DNA from: Planctomycetia bacterium
GTDB lineage: Bacteria > Planctomycetota > Phycisphaerae > Phycisphaerales > SM1A02
Length of the DNA stretch: 64,000 nucleotides
Reading direction: 5' to 3'
NCBI GenBank assembly: GCA_005790605.1
Contig: SXUI01000063.1
Coordinates: 1 to 64,000 of the forward strand
The position numbers were made by a program, and so were the translations under genes. Position 1 is the first letter of the stretch; each line of letters begins with the position of its first letter. The notes below the pieces were generated by a model. That model ran no database searches and was not told the DNA's origin. It was given only the letters and a program-made list of their open reading frames with translations. Positions 45,777-58,697 of this stretch are shown here, one piece after another.

Positions 45777-46080
45777 ATGCGCTGGTGGCGATTCACTCGC
45801 CCCAGCGCATTCCAAAGCGAGTGCAGGTTTTTGCGGCGCTTCGCCGCAAGAAACCTGCCACGAGCGCTCATGGGACGCGCCGCCGCGAATGAATCGCGAT
45901 CGGCGCAATTCCATTGTTGTTTGACGCACTGAGCCCGCCCTCCGGCGGTGCCGATTCACTCGGCCCGCCGGAGTCCAGAGCGAGTGCAGGTTTTTGCGGC
46001 GCTGCGCCGCAAGAAACCTGCCACGAGCGCTCAAGATAGTGCAGTGATCTTCGCTTGCGCAGGGCGCGAGTGAAGATCAC
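45777..46080. repeat. Hairpin repeat array, copy A/B of the conserved-loop family
   Basis: Within the convergent FG-GAP/gltA interval lie three type-1 hairpins and related hairpins. Type 1 at 45777-45810 and 45940-45973 (forward) and 45877-45906 (reverse) have variable 6-9-base stems, conserved inner stems such as GGCGA or GCCGA, and loops TTCAC or its relatives. Type 2 is at 45823-45858 and 45986-46021 (GCAGGTTT...AAACCTGC). Type 3 is at 46044-46080 (GTGATCTTC...GAAGATCAC with a GCGC-AGG-GCGC core). Flanks include AAAGCGAG and GAGCGCTC. No protein-coding signal was found. Confidence 0.8.
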
Positions 46081-46083
46081 GCA

Positions 46084-48669: not shown

Positions 48670-49304
48670 ATGCGAACCCAGCACAACCCCGCTTGCTCGT
48701 CAAAATCTGCGGCGTAACCACAGTCGCGATGGCTCTCGATGCCGTCGATGCCGGCGCGGATCTTGTCGGAGTCGTCCTGATTCCGTCGAGCCCGCGTTGC
48801 GTTTCGCTCTCGATCGCGCATGCGATTCGCGAGGCACTTCGCGGGAGCGCGGAGTCGGTCGCGCTTGCCACTGCTCGCTGCGACGACGCCGTCCTGCAAG
48901 CGGCGGGTACATTCGACACGGTGCAACTGCACGGCGACGAAGCTCCGGAGGAGCTCGGCGCCGTCCGCGCAAGATTTCACTTCTCACGCGTGATGAAGGG
49001 ATTCTCCGCGACTGCTGCAAGTGCGGCGCGATGGGATGCGTGCAATCTCACGAGACTCGTCCTCGACGCAGCGCAAGGCGGAAGCGGAAGTGCATTCGAT
49101 CATGCCGCACTTGCGCCCGCGCGCGCGAAACTCCGCACACCGATCCTCCTCGCCGGTGGACTGCATGCAGGCAATGTCGCAGCGGCGATCAAACTCCTTC
49201 GACCTGACGGAGTCGATGTGAGTAGTGGTGTTGAATCAAGCAAAGGCGTGAAGGATCCGGCGCTGGTGCGACAGTTCATTCGAGCAGTGCGCGGCATCCC
49301 TTGA
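48666..49304 (+). CDS. trpF: Phosphoribosylanthranilate isomerase
   Basis: 212 residues, a TIM-barrel enzyme of tryptophan synthesis. The start is TTG overlapping the rhomboid stop. Motifs are LLVKICGVTT (catalytic Cys), LVGVVLIPSSPRCVS, VQLHGDE, LVLDAAQGGSGSAFD (catalytic Asp), PILLAGGLHAGNV and DVSSGVESSKGVKDP. No other trp gene is in the window. The stop is followed immediately by the second cluster of hairpin repeats. Confidence 0.95.
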   Translation: MNANPAQPRLLVKICGVTTVAMALDAVDAGADLVGVVLIPSSPRCVSLSIAHAIREALRGSAESVALATARCDDAVLQAAGTFDTVQLHGDEAPEELGAVRARFHFSRVMKGFSATAASAARWDACNLTRLVLDAAQGGSGSAFDHAALAPARAKLRTPILLAGGLHAGNVAAAIKLLRPDGVDVSSGVESSKGVKDPALVRQFIRAVRGIP

Positions 49305-49529
49305 GCGCTCGCGCAGGTTTCTTGCCGCGCCAAGGCGCGCGGCAAAAACGCGGACTCAGCGCGTCTGACGAGCGCGAACAAAGGACGCCGATCTTGCGCC
49401 GGTGGCGATTCACTCGCCCCGGCGCAGTCGAAAGCGAGCGAGGCGATGCGCCTACCTCTTCTCCATCTCGTGCATTTCAACGCATCGCAAGTCGCGAGCG
49501 CTCAAACGACGAGCGCTCAAGATTCGCGC
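49301..49529. repeat. Hairpin repeat cluster, copy C
   Basis: In the convergent interval between trpF and the RdgC-like gene. A type-2-like hairpin at 49311-49350 (reverse orientation; stem TTGCCGCGC / GCGCGGCAA) is followed by a type-1 hairpin at 49395-49426 (TGCGCCGG-T-GGCGA-TTCAC-TCGCC-CCGGCGCA). After it come AGTCGAAAGCGAGCGAGGCG and two direct copies of GAGCGCTCAA near 49496 and 49511. The element is about 45 bases identical in reverse orientation to the copy at 58.4-58.5 kb. Confidence 0.78.
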
Positions 49530-56310: not shown

Positions 56311-56688
56311 ATGCCACGCGCACGCAAGGGTGCAGCCCGCACGCAAGCCCGCCGCAAGCTTCTTCGAGAAGCACGCGGTTTCTTCGGAACCAAGAGTCGC
56401 CTCAAGCAACAAGCGAAGGTCGCGCTCATGCGCGCCGGCCGTTATGCGTGGCGAGATCGTCGCGCGCGAAAGCGAGACTTCCGCGCCCTCTGGATCACTC
56501 GTATCACGGCGGCCTGCCGTATGCGTGGCGTTCGCTACTCGCTCTTCATCAACGGCCTCCAGCGCGCTGGCTGCCTCTTGAATCGCAAGATGCTCTCGGA
56601 AGTTGCGATCCATGATCCGACAACCTTTGATGCACTCGTGACCCTCGCGAAGGCGAAGACCACCGCGACCGCTGCCTGCGCGGCGTAG
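56311..56688 (+). CDS. rplT: 50S ribosomal protein L20
   Basis: 125 residues starting MPRARKGAARTQARRKLLRE. ARGFFGTKSRLKQQAKVALM and RDFRALWITRITAACRMRGV are diagnostic of L20, which binds 23S rRNA early in assembly and can repress its own operon. It follows rpmI by 101 bases and is followed by a strong terminator. A four-residue Ala/Thr-rich tail is extra. Confidence 0.97.
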   Translation: MPRARKGAARTQARRKLLREARGFFGTKSRLKQQAKVALMRAGRYAWRDRRARKRDFRALWITRITAACRMRGVRYSLFINGLQRAGCLLNRKMLSEVAIHDPTTFDALVTLAKAKTTATAACAA

Positions 56689-56770
56689 TTGAGCAGGAGC
56701 GCGGAGTTCTGCCGCGAAGCGCGGACAAACTCCATCGCTCCCTTTCGACTCGGTCGGACCCACTGACAAT

Positions 56771-56809
56771 GACACGGCGCTGGAGCAATCCAGCGCCGTG
56801 TGTCTTTTT
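56771..56809 (+). terminator. Intrinsic terminator of rpmI-rplT
   Basis: A perfect 12-base stem ACACGGCGCTGG / CCAGCGCCGTGT with a six-base loop is followed by GTCTTTTTG, 83 bases after the rplT stop. Confidence 0.93.
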
Positions 56810-58355: not shown

Positions 58356-58472
58356 GCGAGTAGCCGGCGAAGCCGATCGCGAGGCGAACGAGCTTGCAGC
58401 TCAATCGCCACCGGCGCGATGCGTCCAGTTCGCGATCATCGCGGTAGGCGCGCCGCCTCGCTCGCTTTCGAC

Positions 58473-58681
58473 TGCGCCGCCGCGAGTGAATCGCGAGCGG
58501 CGCAATTCCAATGTTGTTGGACGGGCTGAGCTCGCCCTCCGACCGTCGCGATTCATTCGCGCGGTCGGAGTCGAAAGGGAGCGCTGAAATTTGTCCGCGC
58601 GCTTCGCGCGGCAGAATTTCAGGCTCCCGCTCAAACTAACGCAGTGACCGCTGCTTACGCCTAGGCGCAAGCAGCGGTCAC
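58473..58681. repeat. Hairpin repeat array, copy D
   Basis: Type-1 hairpins are at 58473-58504 (reverse; TGCGCCGC-CGCGA-GTGAA-TCGCG-AGCGGCGCA-like) and 58537-58570 (forward; CTCCGACCG-T-CGCGA-TTCAT-TCGCG-CGGTCGGAG). A type-2-like hairpin lies at 58584-58622 (CTGAAATT...AATTTCAG with CCGCGC/GCGCGG core). Type 3 is at 58644-58681 (GTGACCGCTGCTT / AAGCAGCGGTCAC). The order matches copy A/B. Region 58360-58472 has related but less clear pieces. No gene lies in 58356-58749. Confidence 0.8.
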
Positions 58682-58697
58682 GCATCACTCTCCGAGT

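Follow-up and report, generated by a model that had tools for sequence, protein, structure and literature searches.

Palindromic elements at four sites

The stretch of DNA analyzed here, 64,000 nucleotides long and referred to as the window, contains six hairpins of one type (type 1, or hairpin 1), located at 45777-45810, 45877-45906, 45940-45973, 49395-49426, 58473-58504, and 58537-58570. A preliminary description assigned these to three intergenic regions, where they do lie, but a fourth site also exists, occupied by a remnant without hairpin 1 (56683-56760). When folded as single-stranded DNA, five of the six copies form a single stem of 13-14 bp with a 5-nt loop and one unpaired base on the 5' side, and these are far more stable than shuffled sequences (z-scores of -5.4 to -7.5). 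The sixth copy, at 45877-45906, is imperfect (z -2.9); with this one qualification, the claim that the stems vary in sequence yet remain self-complementary is confirmed. The extrahelical base sits five pairs below the TTCAC or TTCAT loop and is a T in 83 of 91 copies. Two classes can be distinguished: in class A the outer stem reads CTCCG.../ATGCG... and is preceded by CTGAGCCCG, and in class B it reads TGCG... and is preceded by GCCGGAAT. The 5' feet are CTGAGCYCG.. in class A and GGAAT.. in class B, and the 3' foot is TCSAAAGCGAG.

Hairpin 1 is one part of a larger unit, which the preliminary description, correct about hairpin 1 itself, did not recognize; it also missed the head-to-head pairing, the terminus GAGCGCTCAA, and the empty sites. 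A full unit consists of hairpin 1, the link AAAGCGAG, a variable hairpin 2, and the terminus GAGCGCTCAA, often with a GGGACGCG-like tail after it. The link is conserved across copies and genera, and hairpin 2 has many different tips, nearly all of them self-complementary. Across the genome, 22 head-to-head pairs occur at fixed spacing (15 at 66 nt and 7 at 80-82 nt); those that were read are A/B heterodimers, and intact head-to-head units start with TTGAGCGCTCG and finish with CGAGCGCTCAA. The linkage between hairpin-1 and hairpin-2 types is weak in class A (p 0.04) and absent in class B (p 0.54). The two hairpins therefore assort almost independently, making the unit a mosaic.

Within the window, the second hairpins and type-3 hairpins were also examined by folding. 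The first element at 45.8-46.1 kb lies on the forward strand and comprises a class A hairpin 1 (45777-45810; stem ATGCGCTGG-T-GG, loop TTCAC, fold z -7.5, 59.8 bits with model R1), the link AAAGCGAG (45814-45821), a hairpin 2 of the TTTTTGC type with a bulged G (45823-45858), and a terminal palindrome, GAGCGCTC (45862-45869). A head-to-head pair with 66-nt spacing follows. Its left half is the imperfect class B hairpin 1 on the reverse strand (45877-45906; 45.8 bits), and its right half, on the forward strand, is a class A hairpin 1 (45940-45973; stem CTCCGGCGG-T-GC, 62.7 bits, z -7.1) with a hairpin 2 (45986-46021) and the terminal motif GAGCGCTCAA (46025-46034). An accessory type-3 hairpin, GCAGTGA...TCACGCA, lies beyond it on the same strand (46041-46083).

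The element at 49.4 kb (49301-49520, forward strand) is a head-to-head unit that opens with TTGAGCGCTC at the stop codon of the gene at 48693-49304; it retains a class B hairpin 1 (49395-49426, forward strand; stem TGCGCCGG-T-GG, 59.6 bits, z -6.5) and is without its class A hairpin 1. The latter was apparently deleted between short repeats (GGACTC / GGCTCAG) at 49335-49375, as palindrome loss predicts. The remnant at 56683-56760, on the reverse strand, retains a hairpin 2 of the GGAATTTG type and AAAGGGAG. At 58.5 kb, a second 66-nt head-to-head pair has as its left half, on the reverse strand, a link AAAGCGAG (58461-58468) and a class B hairpin 1 (58473-58504; stem TGCGCCGC-T-CG, 60.7 bits, z -5.4). 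The right half, on the forward strand, carries a class A hairpin 1 (58537-58570; stem CTCCGACCG-T-CG, loop TTCAT, 58.5 bits, z -7.0), a link AAAGGGAG (58574-58581), and a hairpin 2 of the GAAATTTG type (58584-58622), with an accessory type-3 hairpin on the same strand (58641-58684). The order of type-1 and then type-2 hairpins, with an extra type-3 hairpin, is indeed kept at both 45.8-46.1 kb and 58.5 kb, as originally described.

Beyond the window, stretches surrounding all listed matches (designated by L-numbers) were fetched, and each copy in them was read. The type-3 hairpin is rare, being found at the two window positions and at L040:5902; its stem, likewise variable and self-complementary, carries a bulge, and it lies 3' of some elements. 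At L057 6900-7360, a stretch of ~40 bp (caagacgatcgaagcgtgggtcggacatggg) is present on either side of one element, possibly as a flanking duplication.

Copy number and distribution

The genome (3.03 Mb in 80 contigs, from an assembly that is 99% complete) contains the core CGATTCAYTCG 119 times, compared with a single occurrence of the reversed control, and its three genus-mates (G001, G002, and G003) contain 63, 41, and 37 copies. Beyond the genus, counts of 0-24 per genome are mostly background, since a covariance model built from 90 copies has no matches in five element-free family-mates. In the genome itself, this model, a search suggested in the preliminary description, returned 119 matches, including all six window copies at E<=1e-8. 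Many lie past gene ends and their stems covary; the search thus yielded neither an absence of further copies nor a scatter of matches inside genes without covariation. The same model has 50, 4, and 30 matches in the three genus-mates, and one marginal match in another genome (G061). Seven other family-mates were tested without yielding a match; the element skeleton is absent from five of these. The early conclusion that neither coding sequence nor simple duplication accounts for the hairpins is borne out, and they form a real dispersed family with covarying stems.

Of 251 genomes of the order, 8 carry the skeleton running from link to terminus; they belong to two genera of a single family, and the reversed pattern gave no matches. 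Because only 2 of the 130 sampled genera of the order carry it, the distribution is patchy. In the second genus (for example, records JAIXVI01, JAIYCA01, and CAIWCL01), the hairpin 1 stems differ, and the TTCAC loop and the near-loop stem irregularity are often kept; some copies in G001 carry a GATGCATC tip in the same frame. Rfam gave 0 matches above the gathering score in the window. Phage and plasmid sequences contained no match to the element, and we reject an origin from either. The repeat family is described nowhere in the literature that we searched, several of these searches being unproductive.

Genomic placement, empty sites, and stem covariation

Placement was assessed with genes called by a simple hexamer-model caller, so that gene boundaries are approximate. 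Of the 102 stem-bearing hairpins, 91 are in gaps for which both neighboring genes are known, 9 are close to contig ends, and 2 fall within called genes. The 91 comprise 58 in convergent gaps, 32 in codirectional gaps, and 1 in a divergent gap; the convergent placement reported earlier is therefore a strong bias and not a rule. Elements occupy 29 of 63 convergent, 19 of 185 codirectional, and 1 of 51 divergent gaps (Fisher p 2e-8, convergent vs divergent). The loci were chosen for holding elements, so these fractions can be interpreted only by setting one gap type against another. A bias of this kind is also known from published REPs (PMC3733652).

The strong bias to convergent gaps and 3' ends, the stability of the hairpins on both strands, and the shared occupancy of some sites in several species are what might be expected of a host-selected 3'-end element, that is, a bidirectional terminator or mRNA 3'-end stabilizer between convergent genes whose copies are kept by selection on RNA folding. 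We consider this unlikely. TTTT was found within 10 nt of hairpin 1 in 0 of 88 copies on one strand and 1 of 88 on the other, and canonical intrinsic terminators can be rejected on this ground. Moreover, at L054 1.8 kb an element, and at 56.7 kb the window remnant, lies between a stop codon (at 56688 in the latter case) and a terminator consisting of a hairpin and T tract, and at both sites the corresponding position in element-free relatives is occupied by a hairpin with a T-rich tail. The terminator at 56.7 kb (56772-56808, forward strand), identified by a terminator scan, is native and outside the element; the relatives concerned here are G002 and G003, which are without the remnant. The missing T tract and the native terminators shared with element-free relatives argue against a primary terminator, and bidirectional termination, one of the possible roles offered in the preliminary description, is not supported as the main role. 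Empty sites in genus-mates and the absence of the skeleton from 128 of 130 sampled genera also count against a host-selected 3'-end element, and any effect on mRNA ends would be secondary. Our findings carry a warning for annotation, in that position between convergent genes is by itself insufficient to call a hairpin a terminator.

Comparison of orthologous sites points instead to movement. At the 45.8 kb site, G002 has a short element-free junction, G003 has one decayed element, and G001 has a different variant. The 220-bp unit at the 49.4 kb site, which begins at the stop codon, is absent from G001 and G003. Of four junctions compared in L054, G002 has none occupied (its junctions measure 38-49 bp), G001 lacks the element at two, and G003 lacks it at one, the remaining orthologous junctions being occupied by different variants. 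The coexistence of occupied and empty orthologous sites indicates that elements have been gained and lost and that some sites have been hit repeatedly. Judged by such sites with and without a copy, this is a mobile element, for which the comparison of sequences suggests transposition. The genus-mates are only ~75-80% identical in sequence, which is too divergent for a target-site footprint or duplication to be read.

Mobility of a different kind would be implied if the element were a MITE of a cut-and-paste (DDE) transposon, with GAGCGCTCAA serving as the terminal inverted repeats of the head-to-head unit. The TTGAGCGCTCG and CGAGCGCTCAA boundaries of intact units, which are inverted GAGCGCTCAA ends, are consistent with this idea, but many copies are single, tandem, or otherwise ended, and the hairpins inside the ends covary, which would be needless if only terminal repeats were recognized. 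With no target-site duplication demonstrable in flanks this divergent and no autonomous partner found, we regard a MITE as quite improbable.

The pairing of the stems was evaluated in copies picked by their 3' flank, without use of the stem, by scoring eleven outer pairs. These pairs form in 95.3% of cells; exchanging 3' arms among copies lowers the figure to 69.3% (at most 75.3% over 1000 trials). In the alignment, 10 of 14 pairs vary on both sides, and the covariation score is 0.453, compared with 0.126 for shuffled and at most 0.092 for slid alignments. The covariation noted in the preliminary description is therefore sound. Its use as proof of selection is not, because template switching during replication can also create and repair stems (PMC8794818), and covariation alone cannot separate selection from such repair; template switching accounts less readily for the constancy of the bulged T and the loop. 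Although blocks of variation and a few arm chimeras with broken pairing (for example, L040:5794-5832 and L047:4024-4062) fit stems made and mended by switching (PMC8794818), it is very doubtful that the stems pair merely through the perfecting of imperfect palindromes in otherwise inert repeat DNA, given that switching would tend to erase the bulge that is a fixed T in most copies beneath a fixed loop, that single-pair intermediates with G-T pairs occur among the stems, and that dispersal would be left unexplained.

Relation to known repeats and a possible mechanism

In many respects the family resembles the REP, BIME, and REPIN sequences moved by RAYTs. Those elements, too, are extragenic hairpins present in many copies; their stems are irregular, they form head-to-head dimers, they have a mosaic build, and they favor convergent and codirectional gaps (PMC3733652, PMC6006769, PMC3116915). 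Unlike in those systems, the genome here is without a RAYT, the RAYT loci fetched from relatives are not flanked by the element, no GTAG/GTGG tetranucleotide was established 5' of the hairpin foot, the unit regularly includes a second variable hairpin and the GAGCGCTCAA terminus, and variation is greatest in the stem, with the loop held constant. CGTC-tagged REPs also form head-to-head dimers, often heterodimers, with 4-5 nt loops and no dedicated transposase known (PMC3733652). However, their stems have 8-9 bp, compared with 14 bp and a bulge here, and the present unit is longer and modular and has no CGTC at the hairpin foot, GACG/CGTC being found ~15-20 nt away in many, though not all, copies.

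Two groups of hairpins associated with Y1 transposases offer further points of comparison. Those associated with class 3 TnpA-Y1 genes in Planctomycetes and Acidobacteria are similarly planctomycete, high-copy, and atypical (PMC6006769), but they lie beside class 3 tnpA genes and have CnGA at the foot, whereas here there is no Y1 gene and a consistent CnGA foot was not established. The subterminal hairpins of IS200/IS605 likewise have one T unpaired in the stem and another in the loop, both read there by a Y1 transposase (PMC8266576); the present family differs in having no transposase gene, no IS body, and a high extragenic copy number. Integron attC sites were rejected, as the elements have a conserved loop and variable stem and no RYYYAAC/GTTRRRY pair was seen by eye.

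The preliminary description raised the possibility of a REP/RAYT-like element, and its two halves fared differently: the REP-like nature is borne out, and the link to RAYT is not supported, no Y1 gene having been found in the genome or in two of the three genus-mates. Searches with PF01797, NF047646, and a profile of four large G002 Y1 proteins detected no Y1 (RAYT/IS200) transposase in the genome, nor was one found in G001 or G003, while control genomes gave positives. G002, alone among the four species of the genus, has large (~390 aa) RAYT-like Y1 proteins, five in number (L105-L108 and L113) and with weak NF047646 matches, and the species of the second genus have other Y1 genes. Within ~1.5 kb of the Y1/RAYT loci fetched from relatives, element-bearing ones included, the element motif was not found. 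The search for Y2/IS91 transposases was also negative in the genome, a weaker result because the control genomes gave no signal; G001 has three partial matches.

Taken together, we favor, with a probability of roughly 60%, a non-autonomous, mosaic, REP/REPIN-like family of mobile palindromic elements in freshwater planctomycetes. Hairpin 1 would most likely be a recognition structure in single-stranded DNA, in which the features read by an enzyme would be the constant TTCAY loop, the T left unpaired five pairs beneath this loop, and the link next to the hairpin. The stem would need only to pair, leaving its sequence free to change. There is precedent for such reading: IS608 TnpA binds both a T in the loop and a T left unpaired in the stem, and for TnpA-REP of E. 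coli what counts is that the bulge is unpaired, whatever its sequence (PMC8266576). A conserved loop and unpaired T on a free but paired stem would be the expected trace of a reader of this kind. The mover may be a single-strand transposase of the Y1 (HUH) type acting in trans, now lost or too divergent to detect, and the position of elements past 3' ends may reflect tolerance of insertion there.

Membership in the RAYT-linked or GTAG-tagged REPs is not supported. Because neither a RAYT nor a GTAG tag accompanies it, we do not file the element under REP/REPIN proper, though it works like one; the most apt description is a modular family of orphan REP-like elements. More tentatively, this may be a REPIN-like family whose spread does not involve a RAYT: its hairpins would keep only their shape, bulged T, and loop for some other putative enzyme to read, while stems and second hairpins would be continually swapped between copies and replaced between species. 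If true, such a family would constitute a further REP-like class beside the GTAG and CGTC classes. The elements described here clearly exemplify a bacterial hairpin repeat, present in many copies, whose stem sequence is free and whose shape, unpaired T, and loop are fixed, in a genome without the transposase that such repeats are presumed to require. They are also a testable system for asking what moves orphan REPs and whether stem covariation comes from recognition or from template-switch repair.

Two further observations concern individual contigs. In G001, contig C82 carries an element-like motif (L237:937) some 450 bp away from a partial match to a Y2-type transposase, which is located at the end of the contig. 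Element-bearing contigs were also encountered in a record titled Limnohabitans MAG13 (L120, L124, and L178), which are probably mis-titled or mis-binned planctomycete contigs.
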